DNA from: Microbulbifer salipaludis
Lineage (GTDB): Bacteria > Pseudomonadota > Gammaproteobacteria > Pseudomonadales > Cellvibrionaceae
DNA length: 64,000 nt
Assembly: GCF_017303155.1 (NCBI RefSeq)
Contig: NZ_JAEKJR010000001.1
Coordinates: forward strand, 248,001 to 312,000
Reading direction: 5' to 3'
Shown here: piece after piece, positions 31,209-54,818 of the stretch
Layout of the letters: each line of letters begins with the position of its first letter
Position numbering within the stretch: the first letter of the stretch is position 1
Notes under the pieces: generated by a model
Databases searched by the model: none
What the model saw: only the letters and a program-made list of their open reading frames with translations
What the model was told of the DNA's origin: nothing
Position numbers and translations under genes: made by a program

Positions 31209-31239
31209 TGTGCCTTCCTCTAAAAATAGTGTTTTGGGT

Positions 31240-31788: not shown

Positions 31789-31825
31789 GGTTGGCCTCCC
31801 GGCTGGTTTAAAAAGGCGCGGCCGA

Positions 31826-32920
31826 TCAGGCCGCGTCTTCCTCGCCTTTTTTGCCAATCACACCGCGCTGCAACTGATCGCGTTCGATGGATTCAAACAG
31901 GGCCTTGAAGTTGCCCTCGCCAAAACCTTCGTCTTCCTTGCGCTGGATAAACTCAAAGAATACCGGGCCCAGCATGTTGGCTGAGAAAATCTGCAGCAGC
32001 AGGCGCGGCTGGCCACCCTCGGTGGTGCCGTCGAGCAGAATACCGCGCTTCTTGAATTCTTCGGTGGGTTCGCCGTGACCCGGCAAACGCTCTTCCAGCA
32101 TATCGTAGTAAGTATCCGGCGGCGGCGTCATGAACTGCATGCCGCGCTCTTTGAGACGGTCCCAACAGGCCACCAGGTCGTCACAGGCAAAGGCAATGTG
32201 CTGGATTCCTTCCCCGTTGTATTTCATCAGGTACTCTTCGATCTGACCGCCACCGCCGGCCGCTTCTTCGTTCAGCGGGATGCGGATCTTGCCGTCCGGT
32301 GCGGTCATCGCCTTGGACAGCAGGCCGGTGTACTCGCCCTTGATATCGAAGTAACGGATCTCGCGGAAATTGAACAGATCTTCGTAGTACTTGGCCCAGT
32401 AGTCCATGCGACCGCGATACACGTTGTGAGTCAGGTGGTCCAGGGTGTGGAAACCACAGCCCTGCGGATGCTGGTCGACCCCTTCCAGCCAGTGGAAGTC
32501 GATGTCGTAGATGCTTTCGCCTTCTTTGTAGCGGTCGATCAGGTACAGGGTGGCACCGCCGATGCCCTTGATGGCCGGCAGACGCAGTTCCATCGGACCA
32601 GTCTTCACTTCAACCGGCTGCGCGCCCTTCTCGATCGCCGCGTTGTACGCGAAGGTCGCGTCTTTTACGCGGAACGCCAGGCCACAGGCCGAGGGACCGT
32701 GCTCGCGCGCGTAGTAGTCCGCGTGACTGCCTTTCTCATAGTTGGTGATGAAGTTGATGTCACCCTGACGCCACAGCTCAACGTCTTTGGTGCGGTGACG
32801 CGCTACCTTGGTGAAGCCCATGGCATCAAAAACGGTCTCCAGAATGCCTTTCTCCGGGGCGGTGAATTCCACGAATTCAAAGCCGTCCAGGCCCATCGGG
32901 TTCTCAAATAAATCAGCCAT
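31826..32920 (-). CDS. hppD: 4-hydroxyphenylpyruvate dioxygenase
   Basis: 364 residues, the usual bacterial length. Two VOC domains; the C-terminal catalytic half carries the iron triad His162 (TLDHLTHNV), His241 ([11 protein letters not shown]) and Glu323 ([10 protein letters not shown]), plus the C-terminal helix that gates the active site ([15 protein letters not shown]). Converts 4-hydroxyphenylpyruvate and O2 to homogentisate and CO2; homogentisate can oxidise to pyomelanin if not degraded. First gene of a three-gene operon driven by the promoter at 33003-33031. Confidence 0.97.
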
Positions 32921-37021: not shown

Positions 37022-37768
37022 TCAATCGGCAAGCCGCGAGACAAAAACACGATCGCCGACGATTTTTGCCGGATTCTCGCGAACCAGTGCCCAGGCCGAC
37101 TTCTCTCCGACTAATGCTTCGGCAGCACGTCGTCCCTCCGCCAAATTTGGGGGGCGTCGTTGTATATGGTGGGTATCCGTCCCAAGGACTGTCGCCAGAC
37201 CTTGCTTCACGATCTGTTCGGCACGTATGCGCGCCGGTTGCCCGAACTGTCCCACAAGGGATCCTGCGGTAACCTGAAAAAGGCAACCGGCATGCACCAG
37301 CGGCTTTATCTGGTCGTAGTCACGGATAATGTCTTTATTCCGCTCTGGGTGGGCAATCAACGGCCGAATGTTCTGTCGTGCAAGCCAGTCGAGCAACTTG
37401 GTCAGACCTGCCGGTATATGACTATGCGGCATCTCGAGCAATACCAAGAGATCTCCCTCCCAGTATCCAAGTGCTGGCAACTTGTTTGCAGAAGCAAGAT
37501 AAATCAATTCGTCCGAAACGCGCACCTCAGCGGCCAGTGCGAACTTAACCCCGAGATCCTCGCGAGCAGACAGTGAGTCAAGAAAACCTCGAAACGCCTG
37601 AGCAATTGAACTTGCGGTATTCGGATAGCGCCCCGGATGAATATGTGGTGTTGCCACCATGTGTGTAATGCCATCCGTGGCTGCCGCTCGAACTAGCGCC
37701 AAACTCTGCTCTAATGTCTGGGGTCCGTCATCGACGCCCGGAAGTATGTGGCAATGGAGATCAATCAT
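37022..37768 (-). CDS. CpsB/YwqE-type PHP tyrosine-protein phosphatase
   Basis: 248 residues. PHP metal-binding blocks are present: MIDLHCHILPGVDDG at the N-terminus, ATPHIHPGRY, LIAHPERN and VLGTDTHHIQ. This manganese-dependent phosphatase family dephosphorylates BY-kinases and other tyrosine-phosphorylated proteins in capsule/EPS loci. It is encoded 101 bases downstream of the Wzc kinase on the same strand, replacing the low-molecular-weight Wzb phosphatase more usual in proteobacteria. Last gene of the core EPS operon. Confidence 0.93.
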   Translation of the reverse strand: MIDLHCHILPGVDDGPQTLEQSLALVRAAATDGITHMVATPHIHPGRYPNTASSIAQAFRGFLDSLSAREDLGVKFALAAEVRVSDELIYLASANKLPALGYWEGDLLVLLEMPHSHIPAGLTKLLDWLARQNIRPLIAHPERNKDIIRDYDQIKPLVHAGCLFQVTAGSLVGQFGQPARIRAEQIVKQGLATVLGTDTHHIQRRPPNLAEGRRAAEALVGEKSAWALVRENPAKIVGDRVFVSRLAD

Positions 37769-37869
37769 TGACGTATATTATCGCATTTTGGGTATGTGTT
37801 CCCGCCGTCATGAGTACTCCATGAAGCCGGTTAGGCCAACCCTGAAATAATGCTTTTTTAACGCCGATT

Positions 37870-40053
37870 TTACTGTGAGTATTCGGGATAATAACCATAA
37901 TGTTGATCAGAATAAGCGCCCCGCTTCTCCATTGAAACGCAATTCAGTATCACACCTTCTGGCCTGATCCCTATATTTGCCAAACGTGAGATTGCCGCAC
38001 GAATAACACCGACCCTCGTCTCCTCTGCACGGACCACATAGAGCAGCGAGTTGGCCAACCTGGCGATTACCATCACATCACTCACCGCCTGTACCGGAGG
38101 CGTATCGATAATAATACGATCGTATTTTCCCCTGAGCTCTTTCAAGATATTCTGGAACTGCACCGAGCCCAGCAAACGCTGAGGATCTTCTGGACGAATG
38201 CCCGAGGGCATCAGATCTATCCCACTTCTTTCATCCCGAACAATACATTCTTCCGTTGAAAAACGACCTGACAGAAGATCAGCAAGACCGGGCCGGTTTG
38301 GTGAAATATCAAATTTTCTTCCAATAGATGGACGCCGCATATCGGCGTCAATTAACAGAACTTTTTCGAGCTGCCCAAGCGAAAAAGAAAGATTAATAGA
38401 CATAGAGGTTTTACCCTCCTCTGGCGCTGACGAAGTGATACAGATTATTTCTGCCTTATCATCTAATCGTGAGAGCACAACACCAGTACGCAAGGACCTT
38501 ATGGCTTCTGAAAAGTGTTTATCCTGCCCATCAAAGTAGCTATACAACGCCAATCCATCAGTATCTTTTGTTGGCACTCTCGGGACCATACCCATTAACG
38601 GCTGACCGAGTTTTCTACTCACGTCCTGTGGATCACGAATACCGTTTTTTAGAAGATCCATCAGAACTACAAGCGCAACGCCCAAGCCGGCACTTGCAAC
38701 GAACGCAAACAAGATCAGGAGTCTTTTTTTGGAGGCCAGGGGGCGTCTTGGCGTGATCGCAGGGTCCGCGAGCCGAGCGGCAGCCGTCTCATAGCCGGAA
38801 ACCTCGCGAGTCTCCTTGAATCGAGTCAAGAATGTATTGTAGAGCTGGCTATTGATCTCAACCTCTCTCTTCAATTCGTCGTAGTGCACCTCTTTTTGCG
38901 CCACCGTTTGCAGGTCGTTTTTGGCCATCGCCAGCTCATTCTCAAGCGCGCTCACTTTTTCTCGCGCTTGCTCGAAGTTAATTTCGATACTCGCAACGAG
39001 ATTGTTGATTTCACCGCGTAGGTTTGCGCGTGCACTGTCGAGCTCATCATGCGCGGCCTGCATAGCTGGATGCTTGGGGCCATAGCGGCGTCCCAGCTCA
39101 GTGACGCCTAGCAAAGCAGAATTCTCTGCCTGCCGTGCGGCCTGAATCAGAGGATTACTAAGAACTTCGGGCTGACTGAGTAACGACTCCGCAGTGACAT
39201 CTTTCCTCTTTACCTGACGGTAGATTGCCTCGACGTCTTTGAGCTCCCGCTTTGCCTCTAATAACTGGTTCATTGTCTCGTTCAGTTCCTGAGACGCCAG
39301 CCCGCGTACACCCTGTAGATCAACCAGGTCTTCGCGCTGCTGAAATGCGTTAAGAGCATGTTCGGAAGACTCTAGCTTTTCTCGAAGACCCTCTAGCCTC
39401 TCACTCAGCCAGCTTGTGGCCTTCTCTGTCACATCTGTACGGACGCTCTGCTGCTCCGCTATATAGGCTTGAGCAACTGCATTGGGGAGTTCCGCCGCCA
39501 ACCGGGGAGAATAACTTTCGTAGGAAAGCTTGATCAGCTGGGTATTCCTGACCGGTTTCACACTTATTTTACTGACGATGTGATTCACGATCTGCTCGCG
39601 CTTGCGACGAGATAAAGCTTCTGGGTCCATTGACGTTGGCTCGGGCTCAATTCCGATCCATCGCTTAAATTTTAACGAAAATGAGGGTTTTGGCGGCCGA
39701 TTGAATTCTTCATGGTTCTCAAGACCGATAGCATCTACGACCCTCTCAGCGATTGCTCGTGACCGTAACATTTCTACCTGGGTCATTAGAAACTCTCGAC
39801 GTTGCGCGCCAGCCTCGTATACATCTCTGATGGAAACCAGATTGGCTTGGCTTGGCGATAGCAACAGTGTCGCGGTGGCCTGATACCTGTCGCGTATACT
39901 TTGCACTGAAAAATAGGCCGCTGTAGTGACGAGCAAAGCGAAAGCGACGATATACCACTTCTTTTCATAGACGGCAAAAATCAGGGCAATGATGTCGATG
40001 TTGCCCAGAGGGGAGGCATCGCCCTCTTCGTCGATATGTGTGCGATTCTCCAT
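37870..40053 (-). CDS. Wzc-like polysaccharide co-polymerase and tyrosine autokinase
   Basis: 727 residues. N-terminal Wzz domain between TM segments (WYIVAFALLVTTAAYF at about 35-50 and LLILFAFVASAGLGVALVV at about 430-450) with a long periplasmic coiled coil; then the cytoplasmic BY-kinase with Walker A APEEGKTS, Walker A' LLIDADMRRPS and Walker B IIIDTPP. The C-terminus has a cluster of five tyrosines (AYSDQHYGYYPEYSQ), the autophosphorylation tail that controls polymer length and export. Ends 8 bases after the Wza gene. Partner phosphatase: the PHP enzyme downstream. Confidence 0.95.
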   Translation of the reverse strand: MENRTHIDEEGDASPLGNIDIIALIFAVYEKKWYIVAFALLVTTAAYFSVQSIRDRYQATATLLLSPSQANLVSIRDVYEAGAQRREFLMTQVEMLRSRAIAERVVDAIGLENHEEFNRPPKPSFSLKFKRWIGIEPEPTSMDPEALSRRKREQIVNHIVSKISVKPVRNTQLIKLSYESYSPRLAAELPNAVAQAYIAEQQSVRTDVTEKATSWLSERLEGLREKLESSEHALNAFQQREDLVDLQGVRGLASQELNETMNQLLEAKRELKDVEAIYRQVKRKDVTAESLLSQPEVLSNPLIQAARQAENSALLGVTELGRRYGPKHPAMQAAHDELDSARANLRGEINNLVASIEINFEQAREKVSALENELAMAKNDLQTVAQKEVHYDELKREVEINSQLYNTFLTRFKETREVSGYETAAARLADPAITPRRPLASKKRLLILFAFVASAGLGVALVVLMDLLKNGIRDPQDVSRKLGQPLMGMVPRVPTKDTDGLALYSYFDGQDKHFSEAIRSLRTGVVLSRLDDKAEIICITSSAPEEGKTSMSINLSFSLGQLEKVLLIDADMRRPSIGRKFDISPNRPGLADLLSGRFSTEECIVRDERSGIDLMPSGIRPEDPQRLLGSVQFQNILKELRGKYDRIIIDTPPVQAVSDVMVIARLANSLLYVVRAEETRVGVIRAAISRLANIGIRPEGVILNCVSMEKRGAYSDQHYGYYPEYSQ

Positions 40054-40060
40054 AGGTATT

Positions 40061-40603
40061 CTAGAAAAACCCCTGTTCTATTGTCACTACATCACCGGGC
40101 CGGAGCTTGGTGGACATATCCACACGCTGCCTATCCTCTTCCGAAGCACCTTCTCGTGTAAGAAAGATTCTATTTTCCGATCCTCGCTCGGTGATTCCTT
40201 GGGCGAGGGCTGTGGCTTTTCCGACTGTCAGTCCCGGCTGATAGCTATATCCTCCCGGTGCTTGCACTTCTCCGTAGATAAACACCGGGCGATATTGAGT
40301 AATAGATACGGTCACACTAGGATTGATCAGATAGTCACCTTTAAGGCCATTCAAAATAACAGCCTCAAGCTCTTCCGGCGTAAGGCCAACGACCTTGATC
40401 TCACCGAGGAATGGGTAATTTATATTCCCGGACTCTCCCAACATGGCGTCGATGCTCAGATCGCTCTCGCCGTACACGCGGATTGAGATTCTGTCACCAG
40501 CGTTCATTCGGTGTTCAACCGTTTCGGCTACCACATATGTAAACGGCAATAACACAACAAACAGTATCGCTGCAGCCAGCGATGGTAGCCTCAATGCATA
40601 CAT
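40061..40603 (-). CDS. Short Wza/GumB-type polysaccharide export protein
   Basis: 180 residues starting at 40603 (MYALRLPSLAAAIL), with a signal peptide (cleavage near VVAE). Poly_export domain (HRMNAGDRISIRVYGESDLS, NYPFLGEIKVVGLTPEELE) followed by one SLBB domain (VFIYGEVQAPGGYSYQPGLTV). It is about half the length of E. coli Wza, lacks the C-terminal outer-membrane helix and has no lipobox, so it belongs to the GumB/EpsE-like short class. Outer-membrane passage may need the beta-barrel protein encoded next door. Confidence 0.92.
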   Translation of the reverse strand: MYALRLPSLAAAILFVVLLPFTYVVAETVEHRMNAGDRISIRVYGESDLSIDAMLGESGNINYPFLGEIKVVGLTPEELEAVILNGLKGDYLINPSVTVSITQYRPVFIYGEVQAPGGYSYQPGLTVGKATALAQGITERGSENRIFLTREGASEEDRQRVDMSTKLRPGDVVTIEQGFF

Positions 40604-40631
40604 AAAAAAATCCTGTACTAGAACCTGTCTT

Positions 40632-41843
40632 CTAGAGTGGAGCCTCGAGCCCCAGAAAATACTGTTGATTCTCCAGGCCGAACACATTTATCGACGTACT
40701 GCTATCAAGAATCGATGCGCCAAGTCTCACACTCAGCCAGTCAATAGGTCGGTACCCTATTGAGAAGCTTGATCGCTTCACCCGATCGAATCGATCAGTA
40801 CCAACGAACTCGCCCTGAGTCTCACTATGAGAAAACGTACTCCTTAGAGCCTCTCCCCATTGGTGAGTCCAGGTAACGGAAGAACTTTTTACATCGATGA
40901 AACTGGCGATACCTAGAGATTCCTGAACGTTTTTTCCAATCGAAAACGAGATAGTGCTGTATGACTTTGGACTCCAGGAAACCCTTCCATCCCAGCGCGG
41001 CCCTTCAAAATTTTCTCTTGTGTCCAAAGAAAAATTTTTACGGAGCCTTCCGCCCCGCAATCGGATACTGGTTTTCGGCAACCTCACCTCTGTGGTTGCC
41101 ATTAGCTGTATCTCATCACTGTCTCGGCTAGGAATTTGTGGGACTTCTACATACGCCAAATCCGTTTTAACTGCTTCCATTCCTACTAGTAGGATACCGT
41201 TCAATTCATAGGTTCCACTTGCGCCAGAATAAATTGCGGTCGAGTTTCGGACAGCATCGTCAAACTCGCTTTTCCGTATGCCGTGTCGAAGCAGACCCTG
41301 CAGCCTGGCTCCCTGACGACCCACGGCGATGGCAATTTCACCACTGGGGCTCCGTGTTCGCTCAGCCTCGATCAAAATCGGAGCCAGCTCACCATCCAAA
41401 TTACCTGTGACCGACTGAGCAACGTCCGTATAACTCGCGGTTGAACGCAGCTCAACCAGGGAGCCGATACGCCATTGCCAACCTAAGTCCGCTGCATAGT
41501 CAGTAAATTCTGGTCGCGTGCCGTTCAAGTAGTGTCCACGCGTGAGGGTAAAGCTGGAACTGAGATTTGTAAGCTGCCCCTCCCTCGATACCTCGAGCGA
41601 AGGAGATATACGTGTAATCCAGTCATCCTGGCGATCTTGTGAGGTTAACGAGACGTTGTCGTTGTATTGCACTTCAAGCTCAGCGGATCCAACGAGCTCA
41701 AAATTTGCTGGTAGATCTATAGTCACTGCGTTTGCTGTCGGCGTCATTCCAGCAAGCAGGATAAAGAAATAAGTTCTGCTCACGGTATTCTTTTTTGGCT
41801 TTTCTAGACAGGCCACGGTAGCGCTCTTGTGTCTCCGCTTCAT
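40632..41843 (-). CDS. EPS outer-membrane beta-barrel protein
   Basis: 403 residues. A signal peptide is visible around residues 20-38 (VSRTYFFILLAGM, ANA); the true start may be a GTG about 20 codons inside. The rest is an alternating amphipathic beta pattern with repeated aromatic girdle positions (AELEVQYNDNVSLTSQD, RTSLRLRG-type strands), ending near YFLGLEAPL. It resembles the outer-membrane barrels of EPS clusters with short Wza proteins (EpsL/TIGR03014-like). Likely export channel or anchor; placed between the glycosyl-phosphate transferase and wza in one operon. Confidence 0.8.
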   Translation of the reverse strand: MKRRHKSATVACLEKPKKNTVSRTYFFILLAGMTPTANAVTIDLPANFELVGSAELEVQYNDNVSLTSQDRQDDWITRISPSLEVSREGQLTNLSSSFTLTRGHYLNGTRPEFTDYAADLGWQWRIGSLVELRSTASYTDVAQSVTGNLDGELAPILIEAERTRSPSGEIAIAVGRQGARLQGLLRHGIRKSEFDDAVRNSTAIYSGASGTYELNGILLVGMEAVKTDLAYVEVPQIPSRDSDEIQLMATTEVRLPKTSIRLRGGRLRKNFSLDTRENFEGPRWDGRVSWSPKSYSTISFSIGKNVQESLGIASFIDVKSSSVTWTHQWGEALRSTFSHSETQGEFVGTDRFDRVKRSSFSIGYRPIDWLSVRLGASILDSSTSINVFGLENQQYFLGLEAPL

Positions 41844-41890: not shown

Positions 41891-43309
41891 CTAGTAGGCG
41901 TTTTTATGGTAAAAACCGCGATAAATCGTCAGGAATATAATTCTCAGGTCGAGCAGAATTGACCAGCGTCGGATGTACTCAAGATCATATTCGACACGTC
42001 GGCTCATTTTGTACAGAGTATCGGTCTCTCCCCTAAAGCCTTTTATTTGTGCAAGCCCTGTTATACCAGGCTTCACCTTGTGACGAAGCATATAACCATT
42101 GACCTGGCTTCGATATTCTTCGTTATGCGCCACCGCGTGTGGTCTGGGACCCACGATCGACATCGTTCCCTGCAAAACGTTGAAAAATTGAGGCAACTCG
42201 TCGAGGGATGTCCTGCGCAGTATTCTTCCAACCGGTGTTACCCGATGATCGCCGGCCTTCGCTTGTGCAACTTGCTCGCCGTCATCCATTACCGTCATGC
42301 TGCGAAATTTCCACACGTAAATTGTGCGCCCATCAAGGCCGTAGCGCCGCTGCTTGAAGATCACCGGACCTGGTGAGGTAAATTTTACTGCGGCCGCTAC
42401 TGCCAGCAAGATCGGTGAAATTAGCACCAGGATTACTGAAGCCAGGACCAGGTCCTCAAGGCGTTTCAACCATCCATCAAAACCCTGAATTGGCGTATCG
42501 AACACGCTCAGGAGGCTGCTACTTCCGACTTGATGCCACCGTGCATGAAGCATTTTTGCGACAAAGAAATTGGGCAAAATGTGTACGGTTGCCGTTGTAT
42601 CTGAGAACTTATCCAAGGTCTCACTGATAATCTGTTCAGCGCGCATGGGCAGTGCGATAAATACTAAATCGAGTTCTCCTGCACGCCCTTTTTCTATAGC
42701 TTCATCTACAGTGCCCAGCACAGGGAATCTTGCCTCATCTCTAATGGAGCAAGCCTGCTCTTGAAATTCAGGCACGTCATAGAAACCATTGACATGGATT
42801 CCTAACTGCGGATTTTCGGCAAGATCTTTAGCAAGTTTATAGCCCGCATCTGTACAGCCAATGATCACTGCCCTGCGTGAATTACCGCCATTGAGCCGAA
42901 TGGCGAATAGGAGTTGGCGCAAACAGTAACGCCAGAATGCCAGGCCGAATAAGGTGAAAACCATCCATGCAGCAACGGCTGGCCGCATATAGTCGGCGCC
43001 AAAGGCATTGAACGAATAAGCGAGAAGGATAAGAAAGGCGCACACCGCGACCCAAGCTACAGTCACTGCGCCAAGAATTCTTTTGTACGATTCACCGCGC
43101 CAAGATCGATATAGCTCGACGGACTCTGAAATAAATGCAAAACATACAGCGGCCGAAAGGCCTACGATCAACCAGTCTTTTCCAGGCGTGACGTTAAAAT
43201 ACGCAAGACTAGCGTACAGCACCCCCTGAATAAGCAGCACATCAAACAATCGGTAAAGAGCCGTAATGCCACTTCGCCGACTGCGGACCCATCCCTGTTC
43301 CACAAGCAC
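41891..43309 (-). CDS. Undecaprenyl-phosphate glucose phosphotransferase
   Basis: 472 residues. Four TM segments in the N-terminal third, a Rossmann-like CoA-binding domain (RRAVIIGCTDAGYKLAKDL), a fifth hydrophobic segment (LVLASVILVLISPILLAVAAAV) and the catalytic sugar-transferase domain with VWKFRSMTV, RTSLDELPQFFNVLQG and SIVGPRPHA. It transfers a hexose-1-phosphate, usually glucose, to undecaprenyl phosphate, the first committed step of repeat-unit assembly in Wzx/Wzy pathways (WcaJ/GumD type). First gene of the core EPS operon; divergent from the VOC-NRPS cassette. Confidence 0.95.
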   Translation of the reverse strand: MLVEQGWVRSRRSGITALYRLFDVLLIQGVLYASLAYFNVTPGKDWLIVGLSAAVCFAFISESVELYRSWRGESYKRILGAVTVAWVAVCAFLILLAYSFNAFGADYMRPAVAAWMVFTLFGLAFWRYCLRQLLFAIRLNGGNSRRAVIIGCTDAGYKLAKDLAENPQLGIHVNGFYDVPEFQEQACSIRDEARFPVLGTVDEAIEKGRAGELDLVFIALPMRAEQIISETLDKFSDTTATVHILPNFFVAKMLHARWHQVGSSSLLSVFDTPIQGFDGWLKRLEDLVLASVILVLISPILLAVAAAVKFTSPGPVIFKQRRYGLDGRTIYVWKFRSMTVMDDGEQVAQAKAGDHRVTPVGRILRRTSLDELPQFFNVLQGTMSIVGPRPHAVAHNEEYRSQVNGYMLRHKVKPGITGLAQIKGFRGETDTLYKMSRRVEYDLEYIRRWSILLDLRIIFLTIYRGFYHKNAY

Positions 43310-43761: not shown

Positions 43762-43777
43762 TGTGCGCACTATCACA
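43762..43777 (+). promoter_or_regulatory. CRP-family binding site upstream of the VOC-NRPS cassette
   Basis: TGTGC-GCACTA-TCACA matches the CRP/Vfr/Clp consensus TGTGA-N6-TCACA at nine of ten positions with the correct six-base spacer. It ends 11 bases before a TTGACA hexamer, so an activator role is plausible. Confidence 0.6.
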
Positions 43778-43788
43778 GCATTTTTTAG

Positions 43789-43816
43789 TTGACATTATTT
43801 TCAGCGATGCCATATT
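43789..43816 (+). promoter_or_regulatory. Sigma-70-like promoter of the VOC-NRPS cassette
   Basis: TTGACA (43789-43794), 16-base spacer, CATATT (43811-43816). The leader to the ATG at 43875 would be about 50 bases and ends in a strong AGGGGGG ribosome site. Confidence 0.55.
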
Positions 43817-43874
43817 GGCGTCCGCTGGCCGCAATTTTTGCGGTGAAAAGCGTAATTTTAAGGGGGGACATGGA

Positions 43875-44537
43875 ATGTCTAGAGTCAGCAGAGTTGACCA
43901 TATCGCATATGCAGTCGCACAGGGAATGATCGAAAAGTGGGCTTGGTACCACATCGAAGTAGAGGGGGGAAAGCTCACCAAGCGCGTGGATGACGTACGC
44001 CCCGACGACCCGGACAGCAGCATGAAGCTCTGGTGTATAGACTTTGAATCCTTCGGAGTCGTTCTCGTTGAGGGGATAGATCGCAAGAAAAAAAGCCAGG
44101 TCACAGCCTTTTCTGACTGCCATGGCGACCATAGCGTACAACATATCGCTTTCGACACTGAAAATCTCGAGCAGTTCGTTGCACGCGCCATCTCCAGAGG
44201 CGTCAACCTACGTGGACAACAACTGGTAAGCAATGATGGATTCGGGGACCTCAAGCAGCTGTTCGGTAAAGGGTATGCCAAGCAGAACGCCGCGGAAATG
44301 TCGTTTCCAGAGTATGTGGAGCGCCCCAAGCAGGGGACTCAAATGAGTACAAGCGTCCCACAGAATACCGGTAAGAACTTTTATCAGCGTATAGAGAATG
44401 CGAGAAACTCCGGCGACACGTCGACACTGATCGACTTCTCACTCATGCCTTCCGATTGGTCGCCAAACTCTACCCAAGAGGCTTCCGCGCCCGAATCCAC
44501 ACAGCCTAACAAGCAGAAAGCCCCAAATCACGTCTGA
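43875..44537 (+). CDS. Single-domain VOC protein resembling the catalytic half of HPPD
   Basis: 220 residues, start ATG 43875 behind AGGGGGG. Residues 1-150 align by eye with the C-terminal domain of 4-hydroxyphenylpyruvate dioxygenase: His9 (RVDHIAYAV for [12 protein letters not shown]), His90 (SVQHIAFDTENLEQFV for [12 protein letters not shown]) and Glu146 (FPEYVER for FFEFIQR), so the whole Fe(II) triad is kept. The sequence SQVTAFSDCHGDHSVQHI also matches the HPPD pattern. The HPPD N-terminal domain is absent; residues 155-220 are a polar, probably disordered tail. HPPD-like enzymes act on arylpyruvates. The next gene, 78 bases on, is an A-T-TE synthetase. The reaction here is unknown; an alpha-keto-acid oxygenase is the best inference. 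Confidence 0.75.
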   Translation: MSRVSRVDHIAYAVAQGMIEKWAWYHIEVEGGKLTKRVDDVRPDDPDSSMKLWCIDFESFGVVLVEGIDRKKKSQVTAFSDCHGDHSVQHIAFDTENLEQFVARAISRGVNLRGQQLVSNDGFGDLKQLFGKGYAKQNAAEMSFPEYVERPKQGTQMSTSVPQNTGKNFYQRIENARNSGDTSTLIDFSLMPSDWSPNSTQEASAPESTQPNKQKAPNHV

Positions 44538-44615
44538 GGCCTAACGCTTATCGACGACGCTTATAACCTATGACGAACAATTAGCATCGTCGAATGTAAG
44601 GCGGAGTGCGGAACG

Positions 44616-47372
44616 TTGATTTTAATCTGCATGTTCCGCCATTACCTCTTAGGAATACAAACGGACGAATTCAGCGTGGAATCTACACCCATAGACGACG
44701 CATGCCGAAGTGCAGCGGCAGCCGATTATTCCGATACAGTTGCGCCATCGTCACACGGTATCGAAGAGCCCGTAATACGTAAGATTGAGCGCAATGCTGA
44801 AATCTGCCCTGATAAGATTGCAGTCACCTTTAGGAAGAATGCCCTATCCTATGGCGCCTTGATATCGTCCGCTCGCCAGCTAGCAGCTGGATTAGAATAC
44901 TCAGGTGTTAGCCACCGCTCTCGGGTGGCGGTAGTAATGTACCCTTGTCCACAACTAGTGGTTAGCCTACTCGCTATACACCTGCTTGGAGCGACTTATG
45001 TACCGATAGACCCGAGTTTCCCCGCTGCAAGAATTGAAATGATTCTGGAGGATGTGCAGCCCGCGGTCATCCTACGCTCATCCGAAGATAGCGATACAAT
45101 TATCGGGAGAATACCTGAACATTTCTCTGCGCTGCTTCAATGTTACGACCATGTGTTCAGCCGTGGACAGAACCCGCTAATCCCATTTCGAGAACATCCC
45201 TTGAAACTAGCGGACGAGTCTCACATATTTTTTACGTCTGGAACCACCGGACGGCCAAAAGGTGCGATTTCTTCGCAGCTGAATCTCGCGCATGGAATGT
45301 CATCATCCGCCCAGTGTTTCGAGCTTAATAGGTCCCATAGTATACTTTCCGTCGCTGGCTCTTCTTTTAGCATCAGTACATTTGAACTACTTTCACTACT
45401 TGCGGCTGGCGGCGCCATCAGCATAGTTGAGCGTAGCGATATCCTACAAATCGATAGACTTTTCTCCGCAGCCGCCGAGGTAACAGTTTGGCATTTTGTA
45501 CCTACGCTTCTTTCGCGACTCATTGAATTCCTGGAAGCAGAGCCGCGCAGGGTCGCACGCCTTAAAAACCTCCAACGCATCCTCACGGGTGGAGACAACG
45601 TTCCACCCGACCTTCTGTGCAAGATCCGAAGCCTGCTGCCCTGGGTGCATCTCTATGTGAACTACGGGGCGAGCGAGACAAGCTGTATGGTTACCTACTG
45701 GCCCGTAGCAGATCTCGCACCACTCAAAACAAAAATTGGAAGGCCGCAGAAAAATGTGAGACTGCTGGTTCTGGATAAGAATGGCAAGGAGGTAGGCAAG
45801 GGCCAGAGTGGTGAGTTGTTTGTCTCGAGTCCAGGAGTCATTGCCGGGTACTTAAACCGCGAAGACCTGAATCAACAGAAATTTCGCGAGATAGACGGCC
45901 GCCGATACTTTGCGACGGGAGACATGACGCGCGTCGATGAGGCAGGAAACTATGAGATGCTCGGCCGGGAAGATTTCCAGATTCAGCTGAATGGAAATCG
46001 GATCGAGCTCCTTGAGGTAGAGCGCACGCTCAAAGGGATACCGGGAATAAAAGACTGCGTTGTCGCAGCAAAATGCCTCAATGAGGAGTCCAATTCAGCG
46101 GCATTAGTGGCCTATATTTTGCCCGATGGATCTGTAGGCGCCACGGTCAGCGATATAAAGGACAAGGCTAGGGGCCTTCTCCCAGAGTATATGGTGCCCT
46201 CACTGTATCTTGAAATTGAGTCAGTACCGACCAATCACAATGGTAAAGTTGACAGAGCCAAGTTACCGGCACCGAGCGACTGTCGAGCACTTCAGTCGAA
46301 TGAAGAGTTGCCGCTTAGTAATAATATTGAAATCAAGGTGGCGAATATCTGGCGTGAACTTTTGGGTGCAAATTCAGTTCATGCAAACAGTCAATTCTTC
46401 GAGTTGGGCGGGGACTCGATTTCGGCAGTCCGTCTTATTACCAAAATATCTACAGAGTGTCTTGTCAATCTCTCTATCGCTGATATTGTTAGCAATACCA
46501 CCGTGCGTCAACAATCAGCCCTGATTGAACGACGACAGTCAAACCAGGATATCACTGATTCAGCAAGCCTCACCCACGATCCAGGGTACCTGCAATTAAA
46601 ATCGGGGCGCAACGATATTTCGCCCCTGCTCTTGATCAATGGAGTTGTCGAATATCTCGAGTTAGCAAAGACGTTATCAACGGATCGATCAGTCTACGCC
46701 ATATACCTTCCCGAGGAGATGGATCTAATCATTAAAGGCGCCGCGTCTACTGCGGCCACTACAACAGATTCCATAGCTGGAATTACCGAGCTATATCTAA
46801 CCGTAATTACCAGCCTGCAACCAAAGGGACCTTATTACCTGGCCGGGAAGTCCTTTGGCGGAATTATTGCCATTGAGGTCGCTCGAGAGCTCGAAAAGCT
46901 CGGGCATGAGGTAGCGTTCACAGGGTTGCTTGATACGGTAACACCAGAGGCATTTACCGCCCACCAGAAATTCCATTTCCGAGTAACGCAGCACATCAAG
47001 AATATTTTCAAGCAAGGTCCGAGATACTTGTTGGAGCGGCTTAACAGCAGACGTTCACGCACTACTCACAGGAACTCTTTACCCAGCTCTATCGCACATG
47101 ACTGTGACGAAGAGTCGATAAATATTCGCGTAAGACATCAAGTACGGAAGAATGCAATTTTCACAACTCGCCTGTCCCGTATTCAACGGCCGGTAGTACT
47201 GATTAAGGCCCGTGATCGAAAACACCTATATGGCGAGAAACCATCTAAGGATCTAGGATGGAATAAATATTGTGAAAACCTGATTACCTATGAAGCGCCC
47301 GGCAATCATCGATCTCTTCTAATGCCAGGACAGGCGGAGCATGTTGCGCGATATCTGGAGCTACATATTTAG
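44616..47372 (+). CDS. NRPS-like A-T-TE synthetase
   Basis: 918 residues from TTG 44616 (GGAG nine bases upstream); ATG 44631 is an alternative. Domains in order: adenylation (about 55-560) with FFTSGTTGRPKGA, NYGASETS, FATGDMTRV, GREDFQIQLNGNRIEL and A10 lysine in NHNGKVDR; carrier (about 570-640) with phosphopantetheine Ser601 in FFELGGDSIS; thioesterase (about 665-915) with Ser746 in AGKSFGG, Asp in LLDTVTP and His in PGNHRSLL. No condensation domain. At the A4 site, where amino-acid activators have Asp (GrsA Asp235), the sequence is SSFSIST with Ser252, so the substrate probably lacks an alpha-amino group. A-T-TE enzymes of the atromentin/ralfuranone type activate arylpyruvates in this way. 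Product unknown. Confidence 0.88.
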   Translation: MILICMFRHYLLGIQTDEFSVESTPIDDACRSAAAADYSDTVAPSSHGIEEPVIRKIERNAEICPDKIAVTFRKNALSYGALISSARQLAAGLEYSGVSHRSRVAVVMYPCPQLVVSLLAIHLLGATYVPIDPSFPAARIEMILEDVQPAVILRSSEDSDTIIGRIPEHFSALLQCYDHVFSRGQNPLIPFREHPLKLADESHIFFTSGTTGRPKGAISSQLNLAHGMSSSAQCFELNRSHSILSVAGSSFSISTFELLSLLAAGGAISIVERSDILQIDRLFSAAAEVTVWHFVPTLLSRLIEFLEAEPRRVARLKNLQRILTGGDNVPPDLLCKIRSLLPWVHLYVNYGASETSCMVTYWPVADLAPLKTKIGRPQKNVRLLVLDKNGKEVGKGQSGELFVSSPGVIAGYLNREDLNQQKFREIDGRRYFATGDMTRVDEAGNYEMLGREDFQIQLNGNRIELLEVERTLKGIPGIKDCVVAAKCLNEESNSAALVAYILPDGSVGATVSDIKDKARGLLPEYMVPSLYLEIESVPTNHNGKVDRAKLPAPSDCRALQSNEELPLSNNIEIKVANIWRELLGANSVHANSQFFELGGDSISAVRLITKISTECLVNLSIADIVSNTTVRQQSALIERRQSNQDITDSASLTHDPGYLQLKSGRNDISPLLLINGVVEYLELAKTLSTDRSVYAIYLPEEMDLIIKGAASTAATTTDSIAGITELYLTVITSLQPKGPYYLAGKSFGGIIAIEVARELEKLGHEVAFTGLLDTVTPEAFTAHQKFHFRVTQHIKNIFKQGPRYLLERLNSRRSRTTHRNSLPSSIAHDCDEESINIRVRHQVRKNAIFTTRLSRIQRPVVLIKARDRKHLYGEKPSKDLGWNKYCENLITYEAPGNHRSLLMPGQAEHVARYLELHI

Positions 47373-47424
47373 CAGCGCTTACAGAGCGAAAATTCACAAA
47401 TAAATATGCTGGCATGGAATCGAC

Positions 47425-49065
47425 GTGCTCTTTAATTCTATTACTTTTATCTTGATATTCCTGCCGTCCGTTTTGGTCGGCTACTATATTCTGCGTCATG
47501 TGACTCTCTTCCGCTTGGCGCTCGCATGGCTTTCGCTAGCTTCGCTATTTTTCTATGCATGGTGGAACCCCCTATATTTAGCGCTGCTATTATCTTCTAT
47601 CGTGCTTAATTTCATGCTTGGAAAAATAATCACTTGCAGTGATAGGCCCAAGCTATTCCTGATCATTGGCATTATTGGAAACCTTGCGGCTATTGGTTTC
47701 TACAAATATCTTGGTTTTTTCTCCACGATTATTTCAGGAGTTTCCGACCTTCAGGTCACCGCCCCCGAGCTGCTATTACCTCTCGCCATTTCATTCTTTA
47801 CTTTTCAGCAGATTGCATACCTTGTCGATGTTTACCGCGGAGCGGGCGCTGAAAAAAAATTCGACCAATTTCTACTTTTCGTATCATTTTTTCCCCAGCT
47901 TATTGCGGGCCCTATCGTTCATCACAAAGACGTTGCCCCACAGTTTTCAGCTCTGCCATACACACCAATAAGGCATGAGCAAATATCCTCTGGGTTATTA
48001 CTCTTTGTCATCGGGCTTGCAAAGAAAGTCATTATTGCCGACCAGCTTTCCCATTATGCGACTCCAGTTTTTTCTACCGCTGATAGTGGTGGAGAACCCG
48101 CCTTACTCGATGCCTGGGGTGGGCTTCTAGCTTATGCGTTGCAGCTATATTTTGATTTTAGCGGTTATGCAGATATGGCGGTTGGCCTAGCGAAAATGTT
48201 CGGTATCAATTTGCCGATCAACTTTGACTCCCCCTATAAGTCGGCAAATATCGTTGAATTCTGGCGCCGGTGGCATATAACTTTATCGCATTTTTTACGC
48301 GACTATCTCTATATACCATTAGGCGGTAGCAAGAGGGGATCAAGATCGTTAAACCTATTTGTGACTATGCTACTTGGCGGATTGTGGCACGGTGCAGGAT
48401 GGAACTTCGTCATTTGGGGTGGATTGCATGGCACTTACTTGATCGTAAATCACTGGTGGGCTCAATCTAAGTCGCTGCTGAATTTTACAGCCGGCACGTC
48501 AACTTCAGGGCAGGTACTTTCTGTAGGTTTCAGCTCCAACAGCCACGGTCATTCACCGCGGACCGTTCCGCCAATATCAGAGAAGCCCTCTGGTTATCGC
48601 CTTTTTCCTTACCCTTCTGTTTATCGTGGGTTCGGTATTTTCACTACATTTTTGCTCGTATCCTTGACTTGGTCGTTTTTTCGAGCAGAGTCACTGGATG
48701 GGGCATTGTCCATCCTTCGGGGAGCTTTTGGGCTTAATGGAATTAATGTTCCTCAGCAGATTTTCTCTATCGCCCCGTACATATTTTCGATATTCGCCGA
48801 CCCAACACCCGGACTTTCCATTGGTGCATTTCCCCACGTCAAGGGCTTTGGATTTATCTTCGCTGCAATGTTCATTGTGTTCTTTTTACCCAACTCCAAT
48901 CAAATTATTCGGTGGTTTTCCGAGACCACTAGCCTCCCAAGCAAAGGTCGCATAGATACAATACAAACTACTGGAGTGATGGTCATTGCGGGGGTGTTTT
49001 TTGCCCTTTCATTAAAAATTATCGCATCCTCGCCGAATAGCGAGTTCCTGTACTTTAACTTCTAG
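47425..49065 (+). CDS. MBOAT O-acyltransferase (AlgI/DltB-like)
   Basis: 546 residues from GTG 47425 (VLFNSITFILIFLPSVLVGYY, the typical MBOAT opening). About eleven to twelve hydrophobic segments. Core motifs: QQIAYLVDVYRG, YADMAVGLAKMFG, VEFWRRWHITLSHFLRDYLYIP and GGLWHGAGWNF with catalytic His322. MBOATs of this group pass acyl groups from a cytoplasmic donor (acetyl-CoA for AlgI, D-alanyl-DltC for DltB) to extracytoplasmic polymers. It starts 52 bases after the A-T-TE gene and is followed after 5 bases by an SGNH-like protein, the AlgI-AlgJ/X or DltB-DltD pairing. The donor may be the carrier domain upstream. Confidence 0.92.
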   Translation: MLFNSITFILIFLPSVLVGYYILRHVTLFRLALAWLSLASLFFYAWWNPLYLALLLSSIVLNFMLGKIITCSDRPKLFLIIGIIGNLAAIGFYKYLGFFSTIISGVSDLQVTAPELLLPLAISFFTFQQIAYLVDVYRGAGAEKKFDQFLLFVSFFPQLIAGPIVHHKDVAPQFSALPYTPIRHEQISSGLLLFVIGLAKKVIIADQLSHYATPVFSTADSGGEPALLDAWGGLLAYALQLYFDFSGYADMAVGLAKMFGINLPINFDSPYKSANIVEFWRRWHITLSHFLRDYLYIPLGGSKRGSRSLNLFVTMLLGGLWHGAGWNFVIWGGLHGTYLIVNHWWAQSKSLLNFTAGTSTSGQVLSVGFSSNSHGHSPRTVPPISEKPSGYRLFPYPSVYRGFGIFTTFLLVSLTWSFFRAESLDGALSILRGAFGLNGINVPQQIFSIAPYIFSIFADPTPGLSIGAFPHVKGFGFIFAAMFIVFFLPNSNQIIRWFSETTSLPSKGRIDTIQTTGVMVIAGVFFALSLKIIASSPNSEFLYFNF

Positions 49066-49070
49066 ATACT

Positions 49071-50054
49071 ATGCGCAATTACATCGCTTTTTCGTTTGGT
49101 GTATTCCTAGGCTTAGCCATGCTTGTCCTTCTTATTCAACTGCAAGAAGGCGTGCCCACATCCAGCTCCAAATGGGCTCACGACCTGTATCATGTCAAAG
49201 AAGAACATGCCAGAGCTGCCCATTCAAATAAACTCTTGATCGTCGCCGGATCAAATAGCCTCTTTGGGATCTCAGCTACGGAGCTAGAGGAGAAATTACA
49301 TCGGCCAACGACGAATTTCGGTGTACATGCTGGTCTTGGACTTAGCTATATACTTGAGCGGAGCAAAGGATCCCTGATCCCAGGCGATATTGTTTATCTA
49401 CCGATTGAGTATGCGCTCTATCAGCAAGACGCTGCGCCATCGTCACAATTGATGGACTTTCTTCTAGCCAGAGATCCCGAGTATTTTCGCTCGCTACCTA
49501 TTGCGCATCAGATACTTGGTTATGCCAACGTCTCGTTCGGACGGATATTCGAAGGGCTTAGCGGAGGCAGTGATCGCTATGAGGGTCGTTCGGCCAAGGT
49601 ATACAATGTTGGCAACGTAAGTCCCTCTGGGGACCAGATAAGAAATAGCCTCGAGCAGGCTATGAGTTATACCGCACGACTGAAGGGTTTGCAGCCTAAG
49701 GACATAGGCAACGGAAAGATTTCTGAATACTCGAAATCAGTGCTTCGTCAATATTTCTCCTGGGCGAGAGAGAACAAAATTTGCATAGTCGGAGCGCCAC
49801 CTAATCTAATGTACTTTGAGGAATATGATTCGGAAAGATTTCTCGATTTTTTTGATGAAATAGTCGATTTCTATCGGGCGGAAGGTGTCGCTTTCGCAGG
49901 TAGGCCTGTAGCCTATCTTTTCCCTGATTCATATTTTTTTGATACTGAGTATCATTTAAACGAAACGGGGGTCGCACATAGGACCCGTCTGACGGTAAGG
50001 GATCTGGCTGGCCGAATGGACGGATATTGCTCCTACGATGCAGCCAGGTATTAG
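49071..50054 (+). CDS. Membrane-anchored SGNH-like acyl-transfer partner of MBOAT
   Basis: 327 residues. One N-terminal TM (FGVFLGLAMLVLLIQL) then an extracytoplasmic domain. LLIVAGSNSLFGIS (Ser61 and Ser63) resembles block I of SGNH hydrolases and DltD, and FFDTEYHLNETGVAHRT near the C-terminus resembles the Asp/His block V. This architecture matches the AlgJ/AlgX/DltD proteins that complete acyl transfer to a polymer after MBOAT. It is 5 bases after the MBOAT gene. Family assignment is by motif only, without a named match. It converges with a sulfotransferase gene 4 bases away. Confidence 0.75.
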   Translation: MRNYIAFSFGVFLGLAMLVLLIQLQEGVPTSSSKWAHDLYHVKEEHARAAHSNKLLIVAGSNSLFGISATELEEKLHRPTTNFGVHAGLGLSYILERSKGSLIPGDIVYLPIEYALYQQDAAPSSQLMDFLLARDPEYFRSLPIAHQILGYANVSFGRIFEGLSGGSDRYEGRSAKVYNVGNVSPSGDQIRNSLEQAMSYTARLKGLQPKDIGNGKISEYSKSVLRQYFSWARENKICIVGAPPNLMYFEEYDSERFLDFFDEIVDFYRAEGVAFAGRPVAYLFPDSYFFDTEYHLNETGVAHRTRLTVRDLAGRMDGYCSYDAARY

Positions 50055-50058
50055 TGAG

Positions 50059-51276
50059 CTAGCCTATCCGCGTTTTGTGTCCAAATCGTAATGCAACCGC
50101 TGTCACTACTCGACTAAGAGTTCCGACTCCAAGCTGGATATTAGGATCGACCTTGACGGGCGTACCGCGCACGAATCGCGATATGATTCTTAAAATGGCG
50201 TTCATGCTATTCCAAACTCTCTCCATCGCACCTTTTCCAAGCGGCAAGTCGCCAATTAAAACATCCTGATGGCAGACAAATGCTTCAGATATCGATGTAG
50301 GATAAGACTTGCCGGCTGTAGAATATCTGATGCCATTTTGGGCGCTGTCGATGATGAAGGATTCGTTTACGACACCGAAATTCTCTCCCAAAGGGAATAC
50401 CTTAATATCCCGCTTGGGCTTTATTCCTTCCGGGTATCGAAATGCTTCCAGCGCTTCGTAGCAGATTATCGATCCTGCTTTCGCCACACGGTGGCTTAAT
50501 TTTCTCTTCCAGTCGTATATGCAGTCAGCGTTAATCCGCTTATCAATGTCTCCTTTCCATGTCTCGGTCTCGACACGTACAAGATCTGCTCCAGACCTTT
50601 CAAGCATTTCAGGCTCAAAATCTTCACCGATAAACTTGCAAATCGCGCCGACTTCTTTTGACGGGTTTACCACCAGATCTTCATAACGAACGGTGACCGA
50701 GCCTGAATCATCACGAAAAAACGGTTCACTTTGTTCATACACTGACATCCAGCGATAGAACTCGCCGACAAATGATTTGGACAGGCCAATATTTTTTACT
50801 ACTGATGGAATAGAGTCGCGAGGATCTCGAATTATGCGGATTATTTTTGCATCGGGATAGAGCAGTCTAATGGTGTCTGCATACATTATGTGCCGGGGAG
50901 TTTTTTCTGCCCATCGTGCTTTTCCATGTCTATAGGCGAATGCGGCTGGAATTGCTGAATAAATTGCCGACGCGGTAGGCTCTTGAGTGCACAGGTATTT
51001 ATTAATCGATTGTTCTGTCAGTCCAAAATGGCTCAGCATACTCTTTCCATCTGGATATAGAATGCTTTTAAGTTGCAGGACGGCCAGCTGGCGCCAATCC
51101 TTCTCACGAACTGTCTGAACGGCGGTCTCTAGCGGTATTGCTCTGAATAGATCCGTTTCAGGACCACATGCAATCCGGCTGTGACTGCAGAGTATAGCTG
51201 AAAGAAGCGAAGTTCCTGATCTCGGTGGCCCCACTATGAATATTGGTGTATGGGATCCTGATTTTGTACTAAGCAT
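50059..51276 (-). CDS. Sulfotransferase family protein
   Basis: 405 residues. PAPS-binding 5'-phosphosulfate loop FIVGPPRSGTSLLSAIL at residues about 12-28 and 3'-phosphate segment IRIIRDPRDSIPSVV near 145-160, the classical Sulfotransfer signature. The C-terminal 120 residues are extra and uncharacterised. No signal peptide, so it sulfates a cytoplasmic or membrane-facing acceptor, presumably a sugar of the nascent repeat unit. It lies head-to-tail with the glycosyltransferase gene upstream. A second sulfotransferase at 59969 supports a sulfated polymer. Confidence 0.88.
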   Translation of the reverse strand: MLSTKSGSHTPIFIVGPPRSGTSLLSAILCSHSRIACGPETDLFRAIPLETAVQTVREKDWRQLAVLQLKSILYPDGKSMLSHFGLTEQSINKYLCTQEPTASAIYSAIPAAFAYRHGKARWAEKTPRHIMYADTIRLLYPDAKIIRIIRDPRDSIPSVVKNIGLSKSFVGEFYRWMSVYEQSEPFFRDDSGSVTVRYEDLVVNPSKEVGAICKFIGEDFEPEMLERSGADLVRVETETWKGDIDKRINADCIYDWKRKLSHRVAKAGSIICYEALEAFRYPEGIKPKRDIKVFPLGENFGVVNESFIIDSAQNGIRYSTAGKSYPTSISEAFVCHQDVLIGDLPLGKGAMERVWNSMNAILRIISRFVRGTPVKVDPNIQLGVGTLSRVVTAVALRFGHKTRIG

Positions 51277-51390: not shown

Positions 51391-52503
51391 TCAGGAAAAA
51401 CTCGCAACATCTCCAGATTCATTGAGTGTGGCAATAGACCGCAATGCGCGCTCAAATTTTATAGCGCTATTTTGCCAATTGAGATCGGCAACCGCTCTTT
51501 GTGCCTCATTTGACATGTGCAGCCATGCCATTTCGTCCTTTTGAAAGATTCTGTTGATTGCATTTTCTTGACCAGTTACATCATCGATATCGTTTAGATA
51601 TCCATTAATTCCATTTTTTATATACTCAGGAGCACACCCCGCTCTTGTAGCCACTACTGGGCAGCCACATGCGAGAGCCTCAAGAATTGGCAGCCCAAAA
51701 CCCTCACTTCTACTACTAAATATATATGCTCTCGAGCTACTATATATCTGTCTCAACCGCTCCTTACTTGGTGAAAGTTCAAATTCGACACCTTCCGGTA
51801 GTGTGTATCCATCTCTCAATGGCTTGCCGCCGAACAATATCAATTTCGCCTTGGGAAAAGTCTTCCTTGCTTCCAAAAAGGCTGTCATTGTTATATCGAG
51901 GCCCTTAAACCTAGATTCAGAGTACATGCTACAGAGGGTGTACTTTTCAGCCTCCGAACCAAGAGGCCGATAAAATTCACCGGGATCTACCGCATTGGGA
52001 ACTAGCACAGCGCCGTCATCATGATACTTTTCGTTCATTACCCGTGATAACCATTCAGCAATCACTATTTTGGGATAGCGTGTTCTATAGGTCTCACGGA
52101 CGCGCGCTGAAGGTTGCTCCTCATGCATCTCGTAGTGCTGCACGAAATAGCATTTTTTTCCCCGATCTTCCGGAAATCCGTTAATCCACTCAACAGTTTT
52201 CCACCAGGTAGCAACCAAAACGTCAGCGGCAGGGTAGAGGTGCGGATAAGTTAATTTTTCAATTGGCAGCTGAATGATCCTGATGCCATCCAGATCAGCA
52301 AAATGTGAGGATGCCAGCCGGGCACGGGGTGAAATCGCCCCTTTGACCAGGCGCTTAACAGAATTCACTATTCCGCCGTACTTATATAGAGGACAAACGA
52401 TAGTTACTTCATGGCCCATGTGGGCGAGGGCCTGGGCATAGATCGCAACGACCCGACAACCGCCGCTCAGAGAGGGGACTGGAAACGCAAAGGTAATTTT
52501 CAT
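51391..52503 (-). CDS. Glycosyltransferase family 4 protein
   Basis: 370 residues, GT-B fold. N-terminal Gly-rich start (FAFPVPSLSGGCRVVAIYAQAL), linker VLVPNAVDPGEFY, and the GT4 retaining-enzyme motif SRSEGFGLPILEALACGCPVVAT with the E-x7-E pair. Transfers a nucleotide-activated sugar to the lipid-linked EPS intermediate; donor unknown. Divergent from the beta-helix lipoprotein at 52843 and upstream of the sulfotransferase. Confidence 0.9.
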   Translation of the reverse strand: MKITFAFPVPSLSGGCRVVAIYAQALAHMGHEVTIVCPLYKYGGIVNSVKRLVKGAISPRARLASSHFADLDGIRIIQLPIEKLTYPHLYPAADVLVATWWKTVEWINGFPEDRGKKCYFVQHYEMHEEQPSARVRETYRTRYPKIVIAEWLSRVMNEKYHDDGAVLVPNAVDPGEFYRPLGSEAEKYTLCSMYSESRFKGLDITMTAFLEARKTFPKAKLILFGGKPLRDGYTLPEGVEFELSPSKERLRQIYSSSRAYIFSSRSEGFGLPILEALACGCPVVATRAGCAPEYIKNGINGYLNDIDDVTGQENAINRIFQKDEMAWLHMSNEAQRAVADLNWQNSAIKFERALRSIATLNESGDVASFS

Positions 52504-54804: not shown

Positions 54805-54818
54805 GCCTGACTAAATTC

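Follow-up and report, generated by a model that had tools for sequence, protein, structure and literature searches.

Introduction

The Dlt system (DltA, DltC, DltB, DltX and DltD) combines adenylation, a carrier, an MBOAT membrane acyltransferase and an SGNH partner in the modification of teichoic acid, with an acyl-tyrosine motif on DltX. Here we analyse a cassette of four genes from Microbulbifer salipaludis that follows a similar logic in an exopolysaccharide (EPS) locus. It lies within a window of 64,000 nucleotides (contig NZ_JAEKJR010000001.1, positions 248,001 to 312,000), to which the coordinates below refer, and codes for a VOC dioxygenase, a nonribosomal peptide synthetase (NRPS)-like enzyme with adenylation, carrier and thioesterase domains (A-T-TE), an MBOAT protein and an SGNH-fold protein. 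A sequence-only reading had proposed that these genes form a Dlt-like system for acyl modification of EPS. We tentatively favour, at somewhat under an even chance, a broader form of this proposal, namely aryl decoration of EPS by a cassette that would make, activate and deliver an aromatic acyl group.

Several other kinds of system are related to parts of the cassette. PatA/PatB, AlgI with AlgX, and WssH share with it an MBOAT protein with an FXYXXF motif and catalytic histidine, an adjoining membrane-anchored SGNH protein, and an envelope or EPS polymer as target; no dioxygenase or NRPS-like synthetase is known to us from their operons. PatA is acylated on the tyrosine of FXYXXF and differs in using acetyl-CoA as donor, according to the part of PMC12148441 available to us. 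OatA-type AT3-SGNH proteins and stand-alone AT3 proteins belong to another membrane protein family than MBOAT, and their reported donors are acyl-CoA or acetyl-CoA; a 2022 review presents peptidoglycan O-acetylation as the one process in which MBOAT plus SGNH and AT3-SGNH do the same job (both from the available part of PMC9558356). A-T-TE synthetases for aromatic alpha-keto acids (atromentin, polyporic acid and ralfuranone type) have the same domain order as the cassette enzyme, lack the Asp that contacts an amino group, and are linked to 4-hydroxyphenylpyruvate. To our knowledge they have neither a 4-hydroxyphenylpyruvate dioxygenase (HPPD) partner nor associated glycan genes. They carry Val at position 1 of the specificity code (PMC10316625, available in part), whereas the cassette enzyme has Ser. 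The XrtA/PEP-CTERM-associated acyl-CoA ligase is likewise an AMP-forming ligase of EPS-type loci, but the window synthetase scores 189.9 bits against its profile TIGR03098, well below the cut-off of 592.35. Among the papers listed by searches of the open-licence PubMed Central collection, a scope outside which most subscription papers fall, no title or opening part of an abstract describes a VOC or HPPD with A-T-TE and MBOAT/SGNH, or an HPPD-linked A-T-TE in glycan loci.

A membrane acyltransferase follows the synthetase gene in Microbulbifer

The VOC (43875..44537), A-T-TE (44634..47372), MBOAT (47425..49065) and SGNH (49071..50054) genes all lie on the + strand, between a divergent EPS operon led by wcaJ and a convergent sulfotransferase gene. 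Among 48 Microbulbifer genomes, 12 contain an A-T-TE ortholog (440 bits or more), with the VOC gene just upstream in every case. The four-gene set noticed in the sequence-only reading is real, and its order is kept in eight of the 48 genomes. A conservation search, which that reading had proposed for the set and its neighbours, finds a co-oriented membrane acyltransferase gene next after A-T-TE in 12/12: MBOAT plus SGNH in eight, an AT3-SGNH fusion in one (L100, the same locus as L019), and AT3 in three (L016, L017 and L018, with a hexapeptide gene between A-T-TE and AT3 in L017). The genes are closely spaced, with 37–61 bases between A-T-TE and MBOAT in 8/8, counted to the first possible start, and a 4-base overlap between A-T-TE and AT3 in L016. 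AT3 proteins were called with Pfam; a custom AT3 profile missed the divergent AT3 of L108, and the AT3 positions come from a scan other than the Pfam tally for 100 neighbour proteins, which covers the first 25 of 66 families. Five of the 24 members of set A3 match AT3, by our reading those of L017, L023, L024, L100 and L108, and L017 and L100 also match an AT3 family in separate scoring.

In the A-T-TE tree the 12 cassette members form one group (support 100/99). Within the MBOAT group (100/100), the AT3-SGNH locus L100 clusters with L011 and the window at a support of 93/100, slightly short of the 95/80 mark, and this nesting implies an in-place exchange of the acyltransferase. The position downstream of the synthetase is thus filled by a membrane acyltransferase of whatever family, although the exchange by itself does not identify the acyl group that is transferred. 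MBOAT orthologs (55% identity or more) are present in 8 of the 12 genomes with an A-T-TE ortholog versus none of the 36 without; 11 of the 48 genomes together have 13 sites with an MBOAT domain above cut-off, eight of them in this cassette. The sequence-only reading had stated that it would fail if synthetase and MBOAT each occurred widely without the other, and this holds for one direction: in 13 further loci described below the A-T-TE family is found without any match to the window MBOAT, but MBOAT orthologs occur only with A-T-TE (8/8).

These patterns also bear on an alternative in which the cassette holds two independent functions, the MBOAT-SGNH or AT3 proteins O-acetylating EPS from acetyl-CoA, like PatAB and OatA, and the VOC and A-T-TE proteins making a free aromatic molecule that the TE releases as a lactone, furanone, quinone or pigment. 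We rate this as a close competitor of aryl decoration, only slightly less likely. An exchange of acyltransferase kinds is simplest with acetyl-CoA as the donor, and the presence of AT3 proteins in the place of the MBOAT favours a CoA-type donor over a carrier protein; the MBOAT-SGNH and AT3-SGNH proteins that have been studied both acetylate with acetyl-CoA (available parts of PMC12148441 and PMC9558356). The occurrence of A-T-TE without MBOAT fits as well. The 12/12 adjacency of synthetase and acyltransferase, on the other hand, speaks against it.

The membrane proteins resemble MBOAT-SGNH pairs and the cassette is not a Dlt system

The window MBOAT is the only MBOAT match in its genome and scores 114.3 bits against PF03062 (cut-off 27). 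A WHG sequence at residues 321–323 supplies the invariant histidine (His322), and the last six residues, FLYFNF in 8/8 orthologs, fit the FXYXXF acyl-tyrosine motif. The SGNH gene begins 5 bases downstream. Its membrane-anchored product, an acyltransferase or esterase by fold, has a GSN-type Ser61 and a DTEYH motif; in an alignment of 23 sequences Ser61 and Asp291 are nearly invariant and His295 is invariant. Sequence searches with this protein gave no PDB or Pfam family of note, and it is the fold that settles its class: the predicted model (pLDDT 92.2) matches SGNH folds and DltD, and on this model the protein is an SGNH-fold, DltD-like partner. With an MBOAT bearing the catalytic His and a C-terminal FXYXXF, and an adjoining SGNH protein with Ser and Asp/His, the last two genes are by anatomy a member of the MBOAT-SGNH kind.

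The DltD-like SGNH partner and the acyl-tyrosine motif are shared with Dlt, but several other Dlt features are missing. The synthetase scores 238.1 bits against the DltA-type D-alanine ligase profile TIGR01734 (cut-off 559.85) and the MBOAT 168.1 bits against the DltB equivalog TIGR04091 (cut-off 375). There is no separate DltC carrier, the T domain being fused within the 912-aa protein with an added TE and with Ser in place of the Asp; the acyl-tyrosine motif is on the MBOAT itself and not on DltX, and the setting is EPS instead of teichoic acid. The cassette is therefore not a Dlt system. What stands of the original proposal is the assembly of activation, carrier, MBOAT and SGNH functions, together with an acid-making oxygenase, in one EPS operon; what does not is the close Dlt analogy, given these missing features, the conserved TE and the replacement of MBOAT by AT3.

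The A-T-TE synthetase has a Ser-code pocket and an intact thioesterase

Pfam AMP-binding, AMP-binding_C, PP-binding and Thioesterase domains are all above cut-off in the synthetase. The pocket code of the A domain, placed by motif, is SIFHLGNCMK, in which Ser246 (codon at 45369..45371) occupies the position of GrsA Asp235. This replacement bears out the prediction of a non-amino-acid pocket. The classic code for aromatic alpha-keto acids was considered for this A domain and rejected, since Ser is present instead of Val. Among the best 120 of 798 passing homologs, 60 have Ser at code position 1, all with the pattern SI[FL]HxGx[CS][ML]K, and the names on these Ser-code sequences include gammaproteobacteria, cyanobacteria, Chthoniobacterales and Elusimicrobiota. 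One homolog, P0172, is an A-T-TE protein fused to a glycosyltransferase family 2 (GT2) domain. A plasmid search with the A-T-TE protein (E 1e-90) gave no match.

The T domain has its phosphopantetheine serine at Ser595 (LGGDS, codon at 46416..46418), and the TE domain (46650..47348) has a Ser740/Asp767/His892 triad. Across 26 aligned family members the nucleophile is Ser in 23 and Cys in three, the Asp is present in 26 and the His in 25, and within nine close orthologs mean identity is 60.4% for the TE and 60.5% for the A domain. An intact and conserved TE is consistent with release of a free product by an independent pathway, and A-T-TE enzymes of quinone type are known to make such products (PMC10316625, in part). 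Against this, the code does not contain the Val typical of enzymes for aromatic alpha-keto acids, and the GT2 fusion points to a link of the family with glycans.

The TE could also itself be a glycan acyltransferase that takes an aryl group off the T domain and attaches it to a sugar precursor in the cytoplasm, either a nucleotide sugar or a lipid-linked repeat, with the MBOAT or AT3 adding a separate acetyl group outside. Conservation of the TE with a Ser or Cys nucleophile, GT2 proteins near or fused to A-T-TE, and rml-type genes upstream of A-T-TE and HPPD in L103 agree with this. On the other side, hydrolysis or cyclisation is the usual reaction of type I TEs, nothing points directly to a sugar acceptor, and the tight link to a membrane acyltransferase would go unexplained. 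We judge this explanation decidedly unlikely.

Nine Ser-code A-T proteins (P0167, P0168, P0171, P0178, P0181, P0182 and P0185–P0187) have Arg at the TE nucleophile position, and their C-terminal part seems to be another alpha/beta hydrolase. A different synthetase-acyltransferase pair is found in two other Microbulbifer genomes (L133:8019-13811 and L134:7239-12559), where a 1380-aa NRPS-like protein is directly followed by an AT3 acyltransferase.

The VOC protein is a half-size relative of HPPD

The window VOC protein shares with HPPD and 4-hydroxymandelate synthase the catalytic domain fold, an LxQxF motif and an intact 2-His-1-Glu metal triad (H9, H90 and E146, taken from alignment). At 220 aa, versus about 360 aa in these enzymes, it has no N-terminal domain, and the Pro and Asn that are conserved in the IPLN motif of HPPD are absent. 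As a single-domain protein it scores 34.8 bits against the two-domain HPPD profile TIGR01263 (cut-off 277). No match was found in a plasmid search (E 1e-5), and viral contigs gave two pattern matches, neither of them a relative.

In M. elongatus a VOC remnant (L025:10067-10648) adjoins wcaJ without A-T-TE; its open reading frame starts past the first ligand, three residues are missing near H83, and an HPPD lies about 3.5 kb away. Stand-alone VOC relatives (L026–L098, from marine Acidimicrobiales, Woeseiaceae and others) frequently have an Lrp/AsnC-like regulator on the opposite strand, in two clusters that account for 21 and 20 of the 73 loci. HPPD is above cut-off in none of the seven of their genomes tested, and the stand-alone VOC is perhaps a half-size substitute for HPPD.

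Ser-code synthetases outside the cassette recur with HPPD and glycan genes

When the A-T-TE search was widened to 144 genomes of the family, 390 of the order and 369 of the class, further loci came to light. Thirteen loci fetched by A-T-TE outside the cassettes have the Ser code (L103–L110 and L112–L116), L103 from a Microbulbifer and the rest from other genera; the synthetase of L113 is split over two open reading frames. Two loci are not counted among the 13: L117 has an Asp code, and L111 codes for an NRPS of 3300 aa in which one module is of Ser type, with HPPD as a neighbour. Full HPPD is next to or near the synthetase in 7/13 (L103, L105, L106, L110, L113, L114 and L115), with HPPD ligands in all seven and TIGR01263 scores of 332–341 bits for L103, L114 and L115. 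Glycan-assembly genes are present in 10/13, reading 12–20 kb in each: rml-type genes with Wzy_C in L103, EPS export genes in L104, L114 and L115, GT2 in L105, L109, L112 and L113, a chitin-synthase-like gene in L108, and a GT4 glycosyltransferase in L116. In two cyanobacterial loci fetched by VOC and outside the 13 (L064 and L077), VOC and prephenate dehydrogenase accompany a Ser-code A-T-TE.

Both the accompanying dioxygenase, be it a full HPPD or the half-size VOC, and prephenate dehydrogenase indicate that the acid is probably an aryl acid derived from tyrosine or 4-hydroxyphenylpyruvate, which narrows the keto, hydroxy or aryl acid first suggested. Its destination is probably the glycan, to judge from the neighbouring glycan genes, the fusion to GT2 and the location in an EPS operon, and the frequency of glycan genes speaks against a free product unconnected with EPS.

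L108 has a separate arrangement (L108:9150-17965) in which the Ser-code synthetase stands opposite a set of AT3-type, chitin-synthase-like and AT3-type genes, the AT3-type genes being on the opposite strand and divergent from A-T-TE.

Control loci and the case for aryl decoration

A WcaJ match is present in 29 of the 48 genomes, 17 of which lack an A-T-TE ortholog; we read 14 of these, leaving out G059, G065 and G068 (best WcaJ match 53–56%), and scored the best WcaJ match only in each genome. On the cassette side, an AT3 gene lies within 10 kb of WcaJ in 3/14 (G063, G026 and G022), with no MBOAT there, so that acyltransferases are found at 12/12 cassette loci versus 3/14 controls (Fisher 5e-5, uncorrected for kinship). 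In the locus with the nearest WcaJ (L118, 74%) none of the four cassette genes is present in the 18 kb read, and in M. elongatus (L025/L119), with its VOC remnant beside wcaJ, neither A-T-TE nor acyltransferase is present in 20 kb. The joint absence of synthetase and acyltransferase from L118 and L119 argues against independent functions.

We propose the following route for aryl decoration of EPS. Judging by its fold and ligands, the VOC protein would act on 4-hydroxyphenylpyruvate or a similar compound and oxidise it to a hydroxyaryl acid, for instance homogentisate or 4-hydroxymandelate. This non-amino acid would be adenylated by the A domain, in which Ser takes the place of Asp235, and loaded on the fused T domain, from which either the intact TE might transfer or release it or the T domain might pass it on. 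Co-inheritance and exchange point to a last step in which the membrane acyltransferase would carry an acyl group through the membrane and on to the glycan, here by way of the C-terminal acyl-tyrosine motif of the MBOAT and then the SGNH serine, and in relatives by an AT3 or AT3-SGNH protein. The acyl group of this last step may be the aryl group activated by the synthetase, as the arrangement suggests. One part of this reading, direct transfer from T domain to MBOAT in the strict manner of Dlt, is unlikely. Such Dlt-like aroylation would have a tyrosine-derived hydroxyaryl acid from the half-size HPPD passing from the T domain to the MBOAT tyrosine, the SGNH protein and a sulfated EPS, with aryl-accepting AT3 proteins exchanged with the MBOAT at least twice.

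Several observations weigh against aryl decoration. PatA is reported to use acetyl-CoA as donor (PMC12148441, in part) and AT3 proteins acyl-CoA or acetyl-CoA (PMC9558356, in part), and an intact TE as conserved as the A domain would be superfluous for a pure transfer from T domain to MBOAT. With either side of WcaJ counted, AT3 is within 10 kb in 7/14 controls, which lowers the contrast with 12/12 (Fisher 0.006, again uncorrected for kinship); acyltransferases are thus common in such EPS loci anyway, as the explanation by independent functions would have it. In one control, G002, a distant A-T-TE with the Ser code and an HPPD (locus L103) lies some 21 kb away from WcaJ. A query with the window MBOAT found no match in any of the 13 further Ser-code loci, the Pfam AT3 scan having covered only some of them, and in L104, where A-T-TE adjoins WcaJ, the 20 kb read contain neither a dioxygenase nor an acyltransferase. 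The counts of 10/13 for glycan genes and 7/13 for HPPD stand without a matched background. The missing IPLN residues leave the product of the VOC protein open, and a role for it as the sole HPPD of the genome is ruled out by a canonical HPPD gene in the window.

If an aryl group does reach the glycan, the cassette would encode a way for marine bacteria to make aromatic-ester exopolysaccharides, and under Dlt-like aroylation one with exchangeable membrane acyltransferases. Two findings do not depend on this link: a family of A domains carrying Ser at position 235 is repeatedly accompanied by HPPD and by glycan genes, and in an EPS operon an AT3-SGNH protein has taken the place of MBOAT plus SGNH.

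Neighbouring genes

The divergent operon on the - strand begins with the gene for WcaJ undecaprenyl-phosphate glucose phosphotransferase (41891..43309; TIGR03023, 533.8 bits, cut-off 410.75). It is followed by an EPS export block (37022..41843, -) containing genes for a PEP-CTERM-type outer membrane protein (40632-41843; profile match below cut-off), Wza-like (40061-40687) and Wzc-like (37870-40053) proteins, both labelled from reading the sequence, and CpsB/CapC (37022-37768; CpsB_CapC match). Tyrosine catabolism genes (30201-32920, -) lie 11 kb from the VOC gene, namely the canonical full-length HPPD gene (31826..32920; TIGR01263, 402 bits, cut-off 277) and, beside it, a gene for a fumarylacetoacetate-hydrolase-like protein (30201..31289) with weak NCBIfam matches of that type, all below cut-off. 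On the other side of the cassette, the convergent sulfotransferase gene (50059..51276, -; PF13469, 122.3 bits) is followed by a GT4 glycosyltransferase gene (51391..52503, -; PF00534, 84 bits). Beside these EPS genes, two convergent genes (52843-56717) code for proteins with PKD/Ig-like and beta-helix regions, and similar proteins are present in several related loci.

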